Shown here piece after piece: positions 26,843-34,647 of a stretch of DNA of 34,780 bases (positions within the stretch are counted from its first letter, which is position 1; each line of letters opens with the position of its first letter). The notes beneath the pieces were generated by a model. The model had not been told where the DNA came from. It saw nothing but the letters and a program-made list of their open reading frames with translations, and did not search any database. The stretch comes from a virus. The position numbers were made by a program, and so were the translations under genes. Where the stretch lies: the IMG/VR virus record IMGVR_UViG_3300031812_000011, positions 1-34,780 of that record. One strand, given 5' to 3'.

Positions 26843-28455
26843 AGGTCCTGCCGATCACGCAGGGCAGCGCCGAGTGGCACGCGGCCCGAGCCCGACACTT
26901 CTGCGCCAGCGAGGCCCCCGCGATGATGGGGGTCTCGCGGCACCTGACCCGCGCGGCGCTGCTCCGCCGCAAGGCAAGCGGGTTCGACGAGGAGCCCCAC
27001 CCTGCGCAAGAGCGCGCGTTCCGCCGCGGTCACGAAGCCGAGGCCGCCGCGCGGCGCCTCGCCGAGCAGGAGCTCGGTGAGGAGCTCTACCCGGCCACGG
27101 TAGTGGCCGAGGTCGAGGGGCTGCCGCTGCTCGCGAGCCTCGACGGGCTGACGCTCACCGGAGATGTCGTCTGGGAGCACAAGCTCTGGCGCGCGGACCT
27201 GGCCGAGCACATCGCCCGCACGGGCGAGCCCCCGCCGGAGCACGTCTGGCAGCTGGAGCACCAGCTGCTCGTCACCGGGGCAGAGCGGGCGATCTATTGC
27301 GCCAGCGACGGCGGCCCCGAGCACTACGTGCAGGTCGAGTATCGCTCTCGGCCGGAGCGGCGCGCCCAGCTGATCGCCGGCTGGCGGCAGTTCGCGGCTG
27401 ACCTCGCGGCCGCGCGTGAGGCGCCGCCTCCGGCCGCCGAGCCATCCACCACGGGGCGCGCTCCCGCGCAGCTCCCGGCGCTCGTAATCCAGGTCGAGGG
27501 CCGCGTGGTCGCGAGCAACCTCGAGACCTGGCGCGCCGGCGCGCTCGGAATGATCCGAGCGTTCAATAGGCGGTTGGTCACAGATCAGGATTTCGCCGAC
27601 GCCGAGCGCGTCGTGAAGTGGGCGAAGATTGCGGAAGAGCAGCTCGAGGCCGCGAAACGCGCTGCACTGGCGCAAGCCGCCGATGTGGAAGCGCTGTTCC
27701 GAACAGTGGACGATGTGAAAAGCGAGCTACGCTCGCTGCGGCTCGATTTGGAAATGCTAATCAAAGCGCGAAAAACAACGATCCGGGATCAGATCCAGCG
27801 GGAGGCGCTGAGCACCGTGACCGATTGGTTGCGCGCCGAAGCAGCCGATCTGGGCGACTACGCGCCACGGATCCCCTCCGAGGCCGCGCTGCGGATCGCC
27901 GAGGAGATGAAGGGGCGCAAAACGGTCGCGACCCTGCGCGAGGCAGCGCAGGGGGCCGCCGCGCGGCTGCGGGCCGAGCTGAGCGTGCAGATCGCTCAGG
28001 TCCGCGCTGGCCTCGAGCGAGCTCGGCGCCTCGAGCGCGAGGTCGGCGGGTCGCACCTCTGGCCCGACCTGCGCGACCTGCTCGCCCGCGGGATCGATCC
28101 CGACCACCTCGAGGCGGTGCTCCGCCAGCGCGTCGCCGACGCGCGCGGTGCGGACACGCGCGCGGCGATGGAGGCGGCCCCGGCTCAGGCAGCCACAGCT
28201 CAGGCGGAGCTGACGCTGGCCAAGGCGGACCGGACCGAGGTCCAGGCCACCGACGTGATCACCATCCAGGAGATCGCACGGCGCATCCAGCCGCTGGCGA
28301 TCACCCCGCACGGCCTCGCCCAGCTCGGGGTCGAGCCGCTGACAACCTATCCGGACCCGGTCACCTATTCGGTCGACGCGTGGCCGCTGATCGTCGACGT
28401 GATGATCAATCACCTGCACCGCGTGCGATCGGAGCGATGGGAGTGGCAGAAATGA
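26839..28455 (+). CDS. YqaJ-type recombination exonuclease with long C-terminal extension
   Basis: The N-terminal ~190 residues of this 538-residue protein are a PD-(D/E)xK nuclease of the YqaJ/lambda-exonuclease type: [13 protein letters not shown] (residues 6-18), the [15 protein letters not shown] helix, Asp102 in SLDGL, and Glu113 and Lys115 in WEHKL, which together form the catalytic D-ExK set. It digests one strand from double-strand ends to load the annealing protein. The remaining ~330 residues are mostly helical and Ala/Glu/Arg-rich and extend beyond lambda Exo (226 residues). A less GC-rich patch (27590-27790) lies within the extension. I cannot assign that part; it may interact with the annealase or the SSB. 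The gene overlaps the SSB gene by ATGA. Confidence 0.88.
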
Positions 28456-28853
28456 ACGGCGTCAACAAGGTGATCCTCGTCGGCCACCTCGGCCGCGATC
28501 CGGAGGTCCGCCACGCCCAGAACAACCAGAAGATCGTCCACCTCTCGCTCGCGACCTCCGAGCGCTGGAAGGACCGCACCAGCGGGGAAACCAAGGAGCG
28601 CACCGAGTGGCACCGGGTGGTGATCTTCGACGAGAAGATCGGCGAGATTGCCGAGCGGTACCTCCGAAAGGGATCGCTGGTCTACATCGAAGGCGAGCTG
28701 CGCACCCGGAAGTGGCAGGACCAATCGGGGCAGGAGCGCCAGACGACCGAAGTCGTCGTCCCGCGCTACGGCGGAGCGATCCGGCTCCTGGGCGACCGTC
28801 GCACCGAGACCGCCTCCAACAAGGAGCTACTCGACGATGACATCCCGTTCTGA
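28452..28853 (+). CDS. ssb: Single-stranded DNA-binding protein
   Basis: This 133-residue protein has the SSB OB-fold from its start ([16 protein letters not shown]) through [53 protein letters not shown], to about residue 112. It has a short linker and ends in the acidic tip DDDIPF, the canonical bacterial tail that recruits partner proteins. It coats single-stranded DNA in replication and recombination and probably binds host partners through the tail. The ATG at 28452 is in an ATGA overlap with the exonuclease gene; a further in-frame ATG at 28437 would extend it by five residues. The linker is much shorter than in host SSB. Confidence 0.95.
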
Positions 28854-29142
28854 GGAGCTCGTCGTGCCGCCGTTCGTGAGCCGTGGCCGCCTCGTCACCA
28901 AGTACACGAGCCCCACGGAGTTCGCCGAGACCGTGCGCCGGGCGTGGCAGATGGCTGGCCACGAGGTCAACGTCTGGGTCGAATGGCAACAAGGCATTGA
29001 GCATTTCAAGCAAGGGTGGGTCCGATCCGACTTGATTGCAGGACTGCCTCGGCACGTCTGGTTCGAGCGCTACAGCCAGTACCTCGCGGCCGGAGGCCGG
29101 CCGGTGCCGGTGAAGAAGGTGAATCGGGAGTGCGATGTCTAG
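28837..29142 (+). CDS. Hypothetical protein next to SSB
   Basis: The product is 101 residues if it starts at ATG 28837, which overlaps the SSB end by 17 bases and has AAGGAG ten bases upstream. A GTG at 28864 (92 residues), with GAGGAG seven bases before it, is an equal alternative. It contains [39 protein letters not shown], then [21 protein letters not shown], rich in Trp and basic residues. I do not recognise it. A DNA-binding or accessory role in the recombination operon is inferred from neighbours only. Its last eight bases overlap the RuvC-like gene. Confidence 0.65.
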
Positions 29143-29617
29143 GATCCTCGCCCTCGACCTCGCCCGCGTCACCGGCTGGGCGGTCGTCGTCAGAGAGCCG
29201 GGCCGACCGCCCGTCGTCGCGGCCAGCGGCGCGGTCACCGTCGGGACCGGACGCTGGGCCGCCGACTGGGATCGCGCCCACCGCGACGCCTGGTCCGCCG
29301 AGCAGCTGGCTTGCTGGGTGCAGCGGATCGTCGAGCTCGAAAATGTCACCACCCTCGTCCTCGAGGACGCATTCGCGGCCGCGGCTCGCACCCGGGCGGC
29401 CCGCCAGCTGTGGATCCTCCGCGGTGCGGCGCTCGCGGGAGCCCGGCTCGCGCGGCCGCGAATCAGTGTCGTCGACGCCCCGATCCGCACGTGGCAGGCG
29501 TGGGCCGCCGCCGAGATCGGCTGGCGGAAGCAGCGGGGTCGCGCCGGTGACGAGGCCGATGCTCGCGCGATCGGCCTATGGGCGGCCAGCCGAAATCAAC
29601 GCACAGACAAGGAGTAG
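29135..29617 (+). CDS. RuvC-like Holliday junction resolvase
   Basis: This 160-residue protein has the RNase H fold pattern of RuvC-type nucleases. The first strand ILALDLARVTGWAVV holds Asp8, the next acidic pair is in VLEDAF (Glu77, Asp78), and the C-terminal helix GDEADARAIGLWA holds Asp139 and Asp142. All the acidic positions expected for two-metal catalysis are present. It would resolve Holliday junctions or branched replication DNA produced by the Bet/exonuclease pathway before packaging. It lies eight bases inside the end of the preceding gene and within the recombination operon. Length agrees with phage RuvC-like proteins (about 150-170). Confidence 0.85.
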   Translation: MSRILALDLARVTGWAVVVREPGRPPVVAASGAVTVGTGRWAADWDRAHRDAWSAEQLACWVQRIVELENVTTLVLEDAFAAAARTRAARQLWILRGAALAGARLARPRISVVDAPIRTWQAWAAAEIGWRKQRGRAGDEADARAIGLWAASRNQRTDKE

Positions 29618-29856: not shown

Positions 29857-29885
29857 AAAAAGAGCGGGGCCGCTGGGGGCCCCGC
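29856..29885 (-). terminator. Hairpin with U tract on the minus strand
   Basis: GCGGGGCC (29864-29871) and GGCCCCGC (29878-29885) form a perfect 8-bp stem with a 6-nt loop. The minus-strand RNA continues into UCUUUUUU (complement of 29856-29863), so it would act as an intrinsic terminator for leftward transcription. No leftward gene is seen to its right. On the plus strand it is only a hairpin. Confidence 0.45.
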
Positions 29886-29911: not shown

Positions 29912-30073
29912 ATGGACCGTAGGATCCACGATGGTGTGGCTAGGGCAAACAACACCGCGCGTCAAGCCCGGTGCGATGCGCTCGCTACATACCTGGCATG
30001 CGCAAGCTGCGGATTGCCACACCGACGCAGCAGTGGCGTCTTGTCGACGCGTCCCCCGCACGGGCGGGGATAA
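29912..30073 (+). CDS. 53-residue microprotein with CxxC
   Basis: ATG 29912 is preceded by GGGAGG seven bases upstream, an ideal ribosome site. The frame encodes 53 residues ending in TAA, a rare stop in this genome, and the next gene's GGAGGT follows at 30078. The peptide has Cys in RCDALATY and the CASCG pair (a C-x-x-C half knuckle) followed by basic residues HRRSSG, so metal binding or nucleic-acid contact is possible. I do not recognise a family. A different, longer reading frame covering 29853-30092 was rejected. Confidence is moderate because the product is short. Confidence 0.5.
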   Translation: MDRRIHDGVARANNTARQARCDALATYLACASCGLPHRRSSGVLSTRPPHGRG

Positions 30074-30088
30074 AAATGGAGGTAGGGA

Positions 30089-30412
30089 ATGAGCGAGATC
30101 ATGGGCCGCTGCAAGGTCCTCGACTGGTACGCCCAGCCCCAGCCGTCGCGGTCAGCGCCAGGCACGGAGCACGTCTGCGTCTCGCTGCGGGTCAAGACCC
30201 CAGACGGGGGCACCCGCAACGGACGGGTGTACTTCACACCCGAGCACCCGAACCAGTTCGCCCGCTATGACGCGATCCGGCTCGGAGCCCGCCTCGGGCT
30301 GTCCGAGAGAAAGTGCACCGCGCGGCGCCTCGCCGCGGCGATCGACCTGAATCGGCCGGAAGAGGTCGACGCCTCCATCGATGACAAGGGCTTTTGGCGG
30401 ATCAGCTGGTGA
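30089..30412 (+). CDS. Stand-alone copy of the phage helicase C-terminal domain
   Basis: This 107-residue protein is almost entirely one domain (residues 6-107) that also forms the last 101 residues of the helicase gene 1.3 kb downstream. By hand alignment about 65 of 101 positions are the same, including VLDWYAQPQPSRSAPGT, TPEHPN-FARY, RLG-RLGL, EVDA and the ending GFWRI-W. The DNA is even more alike at the front: 43 bases (30114-30156) recur without change at 31717-31759. ATG 30089 has GGAGGT (30078-30083) upstream. The gene is followed by a strong terminator, so it is not in one simple transcript with the helicase. It may regulate, replace or compete with the helicase domain. No known family is recognised. 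Confidence 0.8.
   Translation: MSEIMGRCKVLDWYAQPQPSRSAPGTEHVCVSLRVKTPDGGTRNGRVYFTPEHPNQFARYDAIRLGARLGLSERKCTARRLAAAIDLNRPEEVDASIDDKGFWRISW
30114..30156 (+). repeat. 43-bp direct repeat, copy 1
   Basis: Begins AGGTCCTCGACTGGTACGCC and matches 31717-31759 over all 43 bases. It lies in the stand-alone domain gene and encodes its conserved VLDWYAQPQPSRS part. Such nucleotide identity exceeds that of the remaining domain and suggests recent duplication or gene conversion. Confidence 0.9.
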
Positions 30413-30434
30413 TCCGCCTGGCCCTGGCCCTATC

Positions 30435-30465
30435 GGCCCGCTGGTAGCCACCAGCGGGCCTTTTT
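30435..30465 (+). terminator. Intrinsic terminator before the helicase gene
   Basis: GGCCCGCTGGT (30435-30445) pairs perfectly with ACCAGCGGGCC (30450-30460) across an AGCC loop, followed by five T. This is a strong Rho-independent terminator, placed 22 bases after the stop of the stand-alone domain gene. It divides the operon and also shows that the helicase cannot start upstream of about 30470. Confidence 0.88.
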
Positions 30466-30491
30466 ACGTTCAGACAGTGGCGGAACGGACC

Positions 30492-32012
30492 GTGAGTACC
30501 ACGGGCCAAGAGCCCGAACACGCGGCGGCCCCGGCGCTCCGGTCCTACCAGCTCGAGGCGGTGGAGAAAGCCGCCGCCTCGATCGCCGCGGGTAAGAACC
30601 CGCTAGTCGTCCTGCCCACGGGGGCAGGCAAATCGGTCGTCCTGGCCGAACTCGCCAGGCGACACACGCACCTCCGTCCCCTCATCCTCACTCATCGGCA
30701 GGAGCTCGTTGCCCAGGACGCAGCCGCGATCGAGCGGCTGACCGGGCAGACCCCGGCGGTCATCTGCGCAGGCCTCGGCCGGAACGACAGCCCGGACGCG
30801 GCCCCGATCGTGGTTGGCTCCGTGCAGACCGTCGCCCGGCGCGACGTGCCCGGGAGGCGGCTCCTCATTGTCGACGAGGCGCACCTCGTCTCCCCCGACG
30901 AGGGGAGCCAATATCAGCAGGTCATCGGCCGCCACCCTGAGGCGGCGATCGTCGGGCTGTCCGCGACCCCGTACCGGCTCGATGACGGGCCGCTGGTCAC
31001 CCACCCCGACATCCCGTTCGATGAGGTGGCGATCGACGTCCCTGCGCGCGACCTCGTCGCCCAGGGCTACCTCTGCCGGGTGGTCCTCGACGACCGCCGC
31101 AATCACGCGATCCCCACCGGGACGGTGAAGAAGCGCGGCGGCGAGTTCATCTTGGGCGAGCTGGAAAAGCTCGCCGCCGTCGCCGAGCTGGTCGAGAGGC
31201 AAATCGAGGACGCCGCGACACAGGCCGACAGCCGCCGATCGATCCTCGTGTTCACCGTCGGCAAGGGGCACGCCGCGTTGGTGACCGCGGCCATCGCTCG
31301 CCGCGGCGAGCGCGTGGCCCTCGTTTCCGAGGACACGCCTCCCGCCCAGCGGGCCGACGTGATCGCAGCGTTCCGCTCGGGCGAGCTGCGCTGGCTCGTG
31401 AATATCGACGTCCTCACCGTCGGGTTCGACGCACCCAACATCGACGCGATCGTCTGCCTCCGGCCGACCTGCTCGCGCGGCCTGTTCGTCCAGATGGTCG
31501 GCCGCGGCTACCGCATCGCGGCCGGCAAAACGGACTGTTTGGTCCTCGACTACGGCGGCAACGTGGCACGCCACGACCCGCTCGACGAGGTCCCGGGCGA
31601 GCGCCGCGTCAACGGTGTCAAGAAAGAGCGCCAAGAACGGCGCGAGGCGACCCAACCGAGCTCCGCGTGGCTCGACCGCGCACTGCTGCATGGGTTCGAG
31701 CCCGTCGGCCGGTGCCAGGTCCTCGACTGGTACGCCCAGCCCCAGCCGTCGCGGTCAGCCCCGGGCACCTGGCACGTCCGCCTCGCCCTCCGGCTCAGGA
31801 CCCCCGCTGGGCTCACCAAACGCGCGTGTGTCTGGTGGACGCCGGAACACCCGAACAAATTCGCCCGCTACCGCGCTCTCCGGCTCGGCCGCCGCCTCGG
31901 CCTGCCGGAGCAGACCGTCAACGCGCGCACCCTCGCCTGGGCGCTCAACAGAGCACGGCCGGTAGAGGTCGACGCGTTCCTCGAGCAGGGGTTCTGGCGG
32001 ATCACGTGGTGA
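30492..32012 (+). CDS. SF2 DNA helicase with duplicated C-terminal domain
   Basis: This 506-residue SF2 helicase has the Q-type opening ALRSYQLEAVEKA, Walker A LPTGAGKS (residues 41-48), motif Ia LILTHRQELVAQ, motif II LIVDEAHLV (Asp128 to His131), motif III GLSATPYRL, motif IV-V regions RSILVFTVGKGHA and LVNIDVLTVGFDAPNIDAIVCL, and motif VI RGLFVQMVGRGYR. The catalytic core is complete. Residues about 406-506 form the domain shared with the stand-alone protein at 30089-30412. The open frame begins earlier, but a terminator precedes it; GTG 30492 (GGAA at 30482) is chosen over GTG 30477. The helicase likely serves replication restart or recombination. No sequence-specific primosome partner is identified. 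Confidence 0.88.
   Translation: MSTTGQEPEHAAAPALRSYQLEAVEKAAASIAAGKNPLVVLPTGAGKSVVLAELARRHTHLRPLILTHRQELVAQDAAAIERLTGQTPAVICAGLGRNDSPDAAPIVVGSVQTVARRDVPGRRLLIVDEAHLVSPDEGSQYQQVIGRHPEAAIVGLSATPYRLDDGPLVTHPDIPFDEVAIDVPARDLVAQGYLCRVVLDDRRNHAIPTGTVKKRGGEFILGELEKLAAVAELVERQIEDAATQADSRRSILVFTVGKGHAALVTAAIARRGERVALVSEDTPPAQRADVIAAFRSGELRWLVNIDVLTVGFDAPNIDAIVCLRPTCSRGLFVQMVGRGYRIAAGKTDCLVLDYGGNVARHDPLDEVPGERRVNGVKKERQERREATQPSSAWLDRALLHGFEPVGRCQVLDWYAQPQPSRSAPGTWHVRLALRLRTPAGLTKRACVWWTPEHPNKFARYRALRLGRRLGLPEQTVNARTLAWALNRARPVEVDAFLEQGFWRITW
31717..31759 (+). repeat. 43-bp direct repeat, copy 2
   Basis: Matches 30114-30156 over 43 bases and lies at the start of the C-terminal domain of the helicase gene. 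Similarity drops outside this block (the two domains are about two-thirds identical in protein), which suggests that this part has been kept the same or converted recently. Confidence 0.9.
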
Positions 32013-32090
32013 GTTAGTCTGCCTGAGCCCCCCTTCGAACGACGCGACCCGCCGGTGGGCGCCGACGGGCCGCGGGAGGGAGAACGACAC

Positions 32091-33020
32091 GTGACCGGTC
32101 CCGAACGTGCCCTGAGGAACCCACTCCGTCAACCCGTTCGCCAGCCTGACGTCGAGTGGTTGCTCGCGCGAGTGGGCGCCCGCTCACCGGGCCCCCATCG
32201 CCTCCCCTGCCCCCGGTGCGCTCAGGTCAAGCACCGCCCACGCGACGACGCGCTGTCCGCGCTGCTCGAGCCCGACGGCGGCCTGACCTGGCTCTGCCAC
32301 CGCTGCGGCTGGCGCGGTGGTCTGCCCGGCGCACGACGCCCGCTGCGGCTCAACCGCCCCTCGGGTCTCGCGCCCTCCCAGCCGCAGCCCGCACCTCGCG
32401 CACCGCAGGACGACCGCACCGAGCGCAGCGAGCGCGCCCAGGCGATCTGGCGGGAGACCGTCGACCTCCGCGCCGTCCCGGCCGCCGTCGCCTACCTCGA
32501 GAGCCGCGGCCTCGGCGACGTCCCAGTCGATCACGACCGCCTCCGCGCCCACCCACGCTGCCCCCGGCCAGGCCACCCGCCGGGCCCGGCGATCGTCGCC
32601 CCAGTCAACGATCCAGCCACCGGCCACGTCGTCGGCGTCTGGCGAATCGCCCTCACGCCTGAAGGTCGGAAGCTCGGCCGCTACGGCCTCGGCCCGTGCG
32701 CAGGTTGTGCGTCGCGCCTCTGGCACGTCGCGCCCGGCGAGACGCTGGCCATCACGGAGGGAATCGAGGACGCTCTCGCCGCACGCGCCCTGCTCGGGAT
32801 CCCGGCGTGGGCGGCTCTATCGGCCACAGGAATGGCGCAGCTCGAGCTGCCCGCGTGGATCGGACCCGTCGTGATCGTCGCCGACGCCGACGACGCCGGA
32901 CGCCAGGCCGCGCGCGCCCTCTGGCGACGCCTGACCACGGCAGGACGCGAGGCTCGCATCATCGAACCGGCAGCAGCCAAGGACGCCAACGAGGCGCTCC
33001 TCGCCCAAAGGAGGCAATGA
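32091..33020 (+). CDS. DNA primase with zinc ribbon and TOPRIM domain
   Basis: This 309-residue protein starts at GTG 32091, with GGGAGGGAGA (32075-32084) upstream. An N-terminal four-cysteine zinc ribbon is complete: CPRC (Cys40, Cys43) and CHRC (Cys69, Cys72), as in DnaG-type primases. A Pro/Ala-rich linker follows. The TOPRIM core holds Glu223 in AITEGIEDALAARALLG and the DADD cluster (Asp265, Asp267, Asp268) in VVIVADADDAGRQAA. These are the metal-binding acidic residues of primases. It makes RNA primers and probably works with the ATPase encoded next (one base apart). Unlike T7 gp4, primase and helicase are separate proteins here. Confidence 0.9.
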   Translation: MTGPERALRNPLRQPVRQPDVEWLLARVGARSPGPHRLPCPRCAQVKHRPRDDALSALLEPDGGLTWLCHRCGWRGGLPGARRPLRLNRPSGLAPSQPQPAPRAPQDDRTERSERAQAIWRETVDLRAVPAAVAYLESRGLGDVPVDHDRLRAHPRCPRPGHPPGPAIVAPVNDPATGHVVGVWRIALTPEGRKLGRYGLGPCAGCASRLWHVAPGETLAITEGIEDALAARALLGIPAWAALSATGMAQLELPAWIGPVVIVADADDAGRQAARALWRRLTTAGREARIIEPAAAKDANEALLAQRRQ

Positions 33021-33021
33021 C

Positions 33022-34647
33022 GTGACGCACGACGCCCACGGACCGAACGGCTCAGCCACGCACAGCATGTTCGTCCTCCCCGCGGGGTTCCGCGACACGA
33101 CACCCTCGAGCGATCACGACGACCAAGTCCACGAGCCGCCCGACAGGGATCTGCCGAAGCTGGTCATCCGCAAGGACGACCTACCAGCCACCGCACGGGA
33201 GCTGGCCGCGATCCTGGCGGACGACCCCAACCTCTACTACCGCGGCGACCGCGTCGTCCACGTCCACCAAGACGAACGCGGCGACTTGGTTATTACCGCT
33301 GCGACTAAAGAAGATGTGATCAACGTCACTCACCAGTACGTCCGTCCAGCGTTAGAGCGGAAGACCAAGAAAGGTGTCGAGACGATTTACATCACGCTTC
33401 CAACTCAAGTCGCCGCGCTCTACCTCGCACTGCGCGCCGACTGCGGGCTGCGTCCGCTGGCCGCGATCACATCGTCCCCGGTGTTCCATCCCGACGGCAC
33501 GATCCTGACCGGCGACGGCTACGATCCGGTCACCCGGACCCTGCGGCACCAGGTGCCGGACGTCTACGTGCCGGACTACCCCACCGACGCCGACGCTCGG
33601 CGCGCGTTCGCCGCTTTGCGCCACGCTATTGCCACGTTCCCGTTCGCGGACGCGATCTGCTGCCAGGACGGCAGCGTCGACCAGGCCAGCCCACCGGGAA
33701 TGGACGAGAGCGCGGCACTCGCCGCGCTCGTGACCGCGTGCCTGCGCTCGTCCCTCCCCCTGTGCCCAGCGTGCGCGGTCCGTGCCGCGGCTTTCTCGGG
33801 ATCGGGCGTTGGGAAAGGCCTCCTGACCCGCACGATCGCCGCGATCGCGTTCGGCAGGCCACCGCGGACAATTACGCCAGGACACAACGCCGACGAGCTA
33901 GACAAACGAATAGTCGCCGCGGTACTGGGCGGCTACCAGGCAATACTGTTCGACAATTGCAACGGACACACGCTGCGCAGCGACACCTTGGCGTCCATGA
34001 TCACAGAGGCTCCGACTACAATCCGGCCCCTGGGATCGTCCGAGACGATCACCGTCGACAGCCGCTCGTGGATCGTCGTCACCGGCAACGCGCTCGAAAT
34101 CAGCGAGGACCTCGCGCGGCGATTCCTCGTCACGAACCTCGACGCCCGCATCGAGAACCCGGAGACGCGACGGTTCCCGTTCGACCCGGTCGAGCGCGCG
34201 CTCGCACAGCGCCCCGCGCTGCTCGGAGCGGTCGGCACGATCTGGCGGTGGGGCCGCCAACGCGCCGGCACTCTGCCGACCGGAGCGCCGCTCGGATCGT
34301 TCGGCGAGTGGTGCCGGCAGGTGCGCGACCCACTACTCGCCCTCGGGATCATGGATCCGGTCGAACGGATCGCGGAGATCAAAGAGGCGGACCCGCGGCG
34401 CGTCGCGGTCGCCGAGCTGTTCGCGGCCTGGGCCGAACACCACGGGACCAGCCTCGTGCGGGCGGCCGACCTCGCCGAGCCGGTCCGGGACATCCTCGAC
34501 CCGCGGGGCCACGGGCGACAGTTCCTCGCGCGGCGCCTCCGCGAGCTCGTCGGCACCCGCTACGCAGGGCGCGTGCTGGTCGCGAGCCGCACCGGCGGTC
34601 GCTGGTCCGTTACAAAATATCGCCTCGAGCAGGCCCAAGAGGCCTGA
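33022..34647 (+). CDS. Replicative helicase-like ATPase (phage/prophage primase-helicase type)
   Basis: This 541-residue protein starts at GTG 33022 with AAAGGAGG (33008-33015) six bases upstream. Motifs are those of the AAA+/SF3-like ATPases found in prophages next to zinc-TOPRIM primases: Walker A SGSGVGKG (Lys265), Walker B AILFDNCNG (Asp311, Asn312), a sensor-like WIVVTGNAL (Asn356), and the LARRFLVTNLDARIENPETRRF segment with arginine-finger character. The N-terminal 230 residues carry a strand-rich domain with a basic IRKDDLPATARELAAIL start. It probably unwinds the replication origin or fork, using the primase next to it. It ends directly at the repeat array. The product is full length, with no defect visible. 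Confidence 0.85.
   Translation: MTHDAHGPNGSATHSMFVLPAGFRDTTPSSDHDDQVHEPPDRDLPKLVIRKDDLPATARELAAILADDPNLYYRGDRVVHVHQDERGDLVITAATKEDVINVTHQYVRPALERKTKKGVETIYITLPTQVAALYLALRADCGLRPLAAITSSPVFHPDGTILTGDGYDPVTRTLRHQVPDVYVPDYPTDADARRAFAALRHAIATFPFADAICCQDGSVDQASPPGMDESAALAALVTACLRSSLPLCPACAVRAAAFSGSGVGKGLLTRTIAAIAFGRPPRTITPGHNADELDKRIVAAVLGGYQAILFDNCNGHTLRSDTLASMITEAPTTIRPLGSSETITVDSRSWIVVTGNALEISEDLARRFLVTNLDARIENPETRRFPFDPVERALAQRPALLGAVGTIWRWGRQRAGTLPTGAPLGSFGEWCRQVRDPLLALGIMDPVERIAEIKEADPRRVAVAELFAAWAEHHGTSLVRAADLAEPVRDILDPRGHGRQFLARRLRELVGTRYAGRVLVASRTGGRWSVTKYRLEQAQEA

Follow-up and report, generated by a model that had tools for sequence, protein, structure and literature searches.

Why would a phage encode the C-terminal domain of its helicase twice, once at the end of the enzyme and once as a small protein of its own? 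The question is raised by a single genome, a 34,780-base IMG/VR record (71% G+C; hereafter the window, i.e., the whole stretch of DNA analysed) of an uncultivated tailed phage, which encodes a terminase, a head-tail adaptor, and head and tail genes. A sequence-only reading of this DNA had noticed that the end of an SF2 helicase recurs as a separate gene just upstream, and had proposed structure prediction, a search with the domain alone and a comparison of synonymous divergence as ways of following this up.

Two copies of one domain in a replication-recombination module

The two genes belong to a module which runs, in order, from a RecT-like annealase, a RecE-like exonuclease, an SSB and a RuvC-like protein through two small ORFs to the free C-terminal domain (CTD) gene, the helicase, a primase and a polymerase/primase-type protein (Table 1). 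BLASTP aligned the free CTD with the helicase CTD at 66 identical residues out of 105 (63%, E 2e-43), and the free frame is intact over its 107 aa, thus confirming that the helicase C-terminal domain is also encoded separately; the whole record holds these two copies only. Misassembly is ruled out as the source of the duplication, since the two copies show 37% residue divergence. Their dS is ~0.50 and their dN ~0.28, and the resulting omega of 0.56 (bootstrap 0.32-0.96) indicates that the protein sequence is held by selection, though loosely. The copies also differ in charge, with 17 K/R versus 13 D/E in the free CTD and 17 versus 7 in the helicase CTD, i.e., the free copy is less basic.

The sequence-only reading had also placed a strong terminator between the two genes, so that they could be expressed separately, and this was borne out both by the structure itself (a perfect 11-bp stem followed by T5) and by its folding energy (MFE -24.9 kcal/mol, z -4.2 when compared to shuffles). 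Homology of the helicase to its relatives begins near residue 16 counted from GTG 30492, and a frame starting at ATG 30381 would run through the terminator; the latter start is therefore almost certainly wrong, the helicase starts at GTG 30492 (or GTG 30477), and the terminator is intergenic. Note that a terminator-like hairpin with a T-run is found on the minus strand (29864-29885, z -2.9), where no minus-strand gene is evident; it precedes the small ORF of 53 aa, which displays a strong Shine-Dalgarno sequence and a CASC motif, and the free CTD gene.

Table 1. Features of the window discussed in the text, and tip-bearing DUF669-like proteins of three other loci
Feature	Position	Strand	Basis or remark
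Bacterial-type SSB (PF00436)	28452..28853	+	E 3.3e-35; C-terminal tip DDDIPF (canonical SSB); same module
RuvC-like resolvase, weak match	29135..29617	+	phrog_159, 7e-05
Small ORF, 53 aa, directly before free CTD gene	29912..30073	+	own Shine-Dalgarno AGGGAGG
Shine-Dalgarno GGAGG of free CTD gene	30078..30082	+	read from sequence; 6 nt before ATG 30089
Free CTD of predicted RadD type, 107 aa	30089..30412	+	BLASTP versus helicase CTD; AF2
43-base repeat, copy 1, codes VLDWYAQPQPSRSA	30114..30156	+	predicted β1 end and β1-β2 loop
Intrinsic terminator between free CTD gene and helicase	30435..30465	+	11-bp stem 30435-30460, then T5
RadD-like SF2 helicase, 506 aa from GTG 30492	30492..32012	+	motor residues 16-358; GTG 30477 start also possible
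Helicase CTD, paralogue of free gene	31698..32012	+	coding sequence to 32009, stop codon to 32012
43-base repeat, copy 2, same reading phase	31717..31759	+	1603 bases downstream of copy 1
Primase (Toprim), directly 3' of helicase	32055..33020	+	Pfam/PHROGs profile matches
Replication protein related to DNA polymerase/primase families	33022..34647	+	DUF5906 weak
Tip-bearing DUF669-like protein, locus L083	3939-4397		helicase there without tip
Tip-bearing DUF669-like protein, locus L085	253-696		helicase there without tip
Tip-bearing DUF669-like protein, locus L009	3190-4038		helicase there without tip

Identity of the domain

The window helicase displayed Pfam matches to ResIII (2.8e-19) and Helicase_C (6.6e-14), and its motor matches E. 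coli RadD (6jde, E 1.1e-55), no other solved structure coming near; the catalytic residues K37, D117 and R343 are conserved. RadD (YejH in E. coli; structures 6jde, 7r7j, 8h5y and 8h5z) is a conserved SF2 RecQ-like repair ATPase whose helicase activity is undemonstrated and whose CTD has been described as unique. The window helicase departs from it in several respects: the zinc-binding elements ZF1 and ZF2 of RadD are missing (there are no cysteines or CxxC pairs between motor and CTD), the SSB-Ct pocket residues R21, R49 and R145 are replaced by A, H and A, and E. coli RadD, unlike the window phage, has no free copy of its own CTD. Phage and prophage RadD-like helicases (e.g., those of Escherichia phage Seurat, Sphingomonas phage MMDA13 and planctomycete prophages) have the same order of motor and C-terminal CTD as the window helicase. 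Relatives with the order motor, zinc ribbon and CTD were collected from 80 virus loci and 80 genome loci (the genomes being mostly planctomycete), and the ribbon pattern was found in 150 of 156 such helicases, whereas the window helicase has none; its nearest relatives are only ~43% identical to it.

In these relatives, the CTD reads roughly V..V.YsvH.KR.AP....RtmRVdY......SEWvCfEH.GyAR.KAe.WW... The motif EH.{2,4}[FY]AR..A is shared by the two window copies and was found in 77 of 162 helicases, as compared to about once in 32,000 other ORFs (most of the other listed matches are re-fetched copies of the same helicases). The predicted structures agree with this placement. Indeed, the AF2 model of the free CTD (mean pLDDT 95) displays the order β-β-β-α-α-β-β, and modelling the relatives' CTD with window sequences excluded from the alignment gave the same strand-helix order; the alignment used for the free CTD itself contained relatives, hence this fold match is not fully independent. 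The best viral matches of the free CTD model were helicases of phages, aligned in their C-terminal regions (TM 0.65-0.69, E from 2.4e-05), followed by DUF669/SSB-like proteins (TM ~0.5). When the relatives' CTD model was compared with the PDB, all of the top eight matches were RadD chains (E 6.3e-04 to 2.8e-03, TM ~0.62); a Foldseek search of the PDB with the free CTD's own model gave no significant match. At the level of profiles, a direct search from the relatives' CTDs did not reach the window pair, and hhalign gave a weak but suggestive similarity between the two (P 0.006, collinear over 73 columns). The domain is absent from both Pfam and PHROGs, and its matches to AsnC-HTH (0.056) and phrog_29829 (0.022) were discarded as chance level. 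Altogether, the same place in a homologous protein, the shared motif and the agreeing predicted structures strongly suggest that the free protein and the helicase C-terminus are RadD-type CTDs.

This assignment gives the domain a candidate activity. When isolated, the CTD of RadD is reported to bind branched DNA at 47% of the level of the full-length protein, with K488 on the CTD as a key DNA residue (PMC9821108). By alignment, K488 falls in the β1-β2 loop, in a segment fully conserved between both window copies. The idea that the domain may bind DNA or a partner is thus plausible by its fold and by analogy with RadD.

Distribution of the free form

Within 46 related virus records, the CTD was found only in the long helicase frame (two records gave a second, fragmentary match in the same frame), many virus records being fragments from which absence is not proof. 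Among 35 genomes and 294 genomes of the planctomycete phylum (some overlapping; ~330 in all), nearly all CTDs lie in frames of ~550-700 aa. Matches in short frames were rejected as free copies: four of them, on inspection, are helicases with a frameshift or cut by a contig edge, a further two are situated at the very start of a contig, and locus L100 is likewise a helicase fragment caused by a frameshift or a contig edge. Direct searches with the free CTD or with both window copies returned nothing in viral contigs, GTDB genomes and phage records; sister phages sought via the RecE-like protein were without a CTD, no relatives were found via the primase and the last gene, and the window-type domain in close form was absent from all relatives found. 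The domain search thus retrieved copies fused to a helicase only, and this phage is the only one in the searched data with a RadD-type CTD in free form. As a separate observation, one planctomycete chromosome (CP087563) contains 12 RadD-like CTD matches, 11 in helicase-length frames and one frameshifted, and therefore probably harbours many related prophages.

The position upstream of the helicase

The sequence-only reading had considered the arrangement foreign to any standard phage module known to it. Our results do not sustain this view, since a small SSB-type protein upstream of the helicase is the rule in the relatives. Indeed, the window record contains no DUF669 (PF05037), whereas 35 of the 38 other virus records do. 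In all 35, DUF669 shares its strand with the RadD-like helicase and is encoded upstream of it, and in 20 of them it appears to be the immediately preceding gene (as judged from distance); with prophages counted, 134 loci have both genes. As an example, the gene order in Seurat and MMDA13 is RecA-type ATPase, DUF669, exonuclease and RadD-like helicase. Neighbourhoods with sak4, DUF669 and a helicase have been described in Firmicutes phages (PMC8093625), and the DUF669 protein of HK620 has been shown to be a genuine SSB, which needs its last six residues to work with Sak4 (PMC5928155). The free CTD gene is likewise upstream of its helicase on the same strand, and directly so. In addition, a bacterial-type SSB (PF00436) is present in the window and in none of the 38 relatives. 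In view of the absence of DUF669 and the presence of this SSB, the window phage has exchanged its SSB equipment, and the free CTD occupies the position of DUF669. Thus, the arrangement appears to be a known one, a small and putatively SSB-like protein beside a RadD-like helicase, and what is new is that the small protein copies the helicase's own domain. UvsW.1 of T4 is likewise a small protein beside an SF2 helicase, UvsW, but it is not known to copy a domain that UvsW itself retains.

The likeness between DUF669 SSBs (e.g., the HK620 SSB) and the free CTD lies in small size, a position upstream of the helicase and a loosely similar fold. In contrast, the two have no profile-profile similarity (hhalign E 0.4-0.8), and homology between CTD and DUF669 was not supported by profiles, the loose fold similarity being all that links them. 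PF05037 matched neither the free CTD nor any of 62 CTD members, PF00436 did not match the free CTD, and the window protein is without a C-terminal tip, ending in RISW.

Origin and putative function of the free protein

Our preferred reading, to which we give a probability of about 0.5, is that duplication of the helicase CTD gave a free SSB-like accessory protein which replaced DUF669, the function being judged from fold and position. The free gene would have arisen in this phage lineage when the 3' end of the helicase gene was duplicated, and its product, a small basic protein and putative DNA binder, would serve as an SSB-like accessory beside the RadD-like helicase. Its substrate may be single-stranded or branched DNA, which it would coat or grip at forks and recombination intermediates of the phage; it may also help to load, tether or stimulate the helicase, whose level would be kept below that of the free protein by the intergenic terminator.

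The omega value and the intact, separately terminated frame argue for a function of the free CTD. They speak at the same time against the very unlikely case of a functionless remnant of a tandem helicase duplication: the frame has remained intact after 37% protein divergence, even the upper bound of omega is 0.96, the gene has its own Shine-Dalgarno sequence and terminator, and no trace of a lost helicase motor was found upstream of it. What such a remnant would explain is that the surviving copy is the upstream one, as expected if the first motor was lost after tandem duplication, and that no homologue of the free gene occurs in any data searched.

Several points count against the SSB-like accessory protein. 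The free CTD is less basic than the helicase CTD; the phage already has an SSB, hence a second SSB-like protein may be redundant; and the case comes from a single genome, in which the CTD has no sequence link to DUF669 and the window pair has a weak one to the relatives' CTD. The loss of net positive charge would suit a regulator or competitor, i.e., a free CTD which binds SSB (of host or phage) or the helicase and limits or steers helicase recruitment, with no DNA action of its own. Support for this comes from a GST pull-down, in which SSB was retained by the RadD CTD alone and SSB binding was thereby mapped to this domain (PMC9821108), and from the window helicase itself, which has lost two of the three pocket arginines (R21 to A, R145 to A), so that its SSB contact may be rewired. 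However, in another study the SSB-Ct pocket was assigned to motor domain 1 of RadD, with R21, R49 and R145, and not to the CTD (PMC10238739), and the predicted DNA-contact segment is the best-conserved part of the copy pair. We regard a regulator as unlikely on balance. The adjacency of the genes, their shared domain and their common conserved segment would also be compatible with a detached subunit, in which the free CTD pairs homotypically with the helicase CTD and adds a second DNA-binding site; this is quite unlikely, given that the RadD literature examined gave no sign of CTD dimerisation and that the terminator suggests unequal amounts of the two proteins.

The 43-base exact repeat

The sequence-only reading had further pointed to 43 bases shared without change by the two copies, and these are indeed present, in the same reading phase. 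The run of 13 identical codons has a permutation p of 0.02 in a region where third positions are ~89% G+C, and the identity is mildly unusual. The block corresponds to the predicted β1-β2 region and is conserved at the protein level, hence gene conversion is possible but not required; the special selection or gene conversion suggested earlier is weakly supported. It is highly improbable that these bases are mainly kept as DNA (as a binding site or a recombination-homogenised repeat), with the proteins being secondary: the codon run and the RecT-like and RecE-like recombination proteins of the phage would agree with it, but the effect is weak and the protein conservation and G+C bias of the block speak against it. 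Note that this phage combines in-phase 43-base direct repeats with its own RecT/RecE-like proteins; annealing between the repeats, 1.6 kb apart, would remove the helicase motor, so that a single chimeric CTD gene remained.

An SSB-like tip on related helicases

Of 148 complete phage and prophage RadD-like helicases, 132 (~90%) carry at their C-terminus an acidic tip resembling that of SSB, [DE]..[IVL]P[FW] (as in "-DDIPF"). The helicases considered come from loci L003-L162, together with L180 and L181, which are related by descent, so that these counts are not independent events. Among 4,690 other complete ORFs the tip was found in 4, namely a frameshifted helicase and three DUF669-like proteins (the match in L009 being marginal). 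At loci with a tip on the helicase, the DUF669 partner never has one (0 of 122), while at those without, it has one in 3 of 12. Neither E. coli RadD nor the window helicase carries the tip. Two of the three pocket arginines are conserved in tip-bearing phage helicases (R21 in 112 of 126, R145 in 124 of 126), whereas the window helicase has neither of these two. The ATPase of RadD is stimulated about threefold by SSB-Ct (PMC10238739), hence the phage enzymes may carry their own activating peptide, and this analogy suggests that the helicase tip is a built-in one. The literature searched gave no earlier description of a tip on RadD-like helicases, which is no proof of its absence.

These observations allow a bolder version of the preferred reading, which is possible although on the unlikely side. 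RadD-type CTDs would be SSB-like modules interchangeable with phage DUF669 SSBs; the window phage would have freed its helicase's own domain as an SSB-like protein, which would be a novel way for a phage SSB to originate, and in the relatives the SSB interaction tip would have been transferred from the SSB to the helicase C-terminus.

Altogether, a RadD CTD which occurs naturally as a free protein would make it possible to test the role of this domain alone, two studies being at odds over whether SSB binds to the CTD (PMC9821108) or to motor domain 1 (PMC10238739), and a built-in activating tip peptide would be easy to test. If the DUF669 SSB was replaced in this lineage, the case shows that copying a helicase domain can provide a phage with a new accessory SSB.
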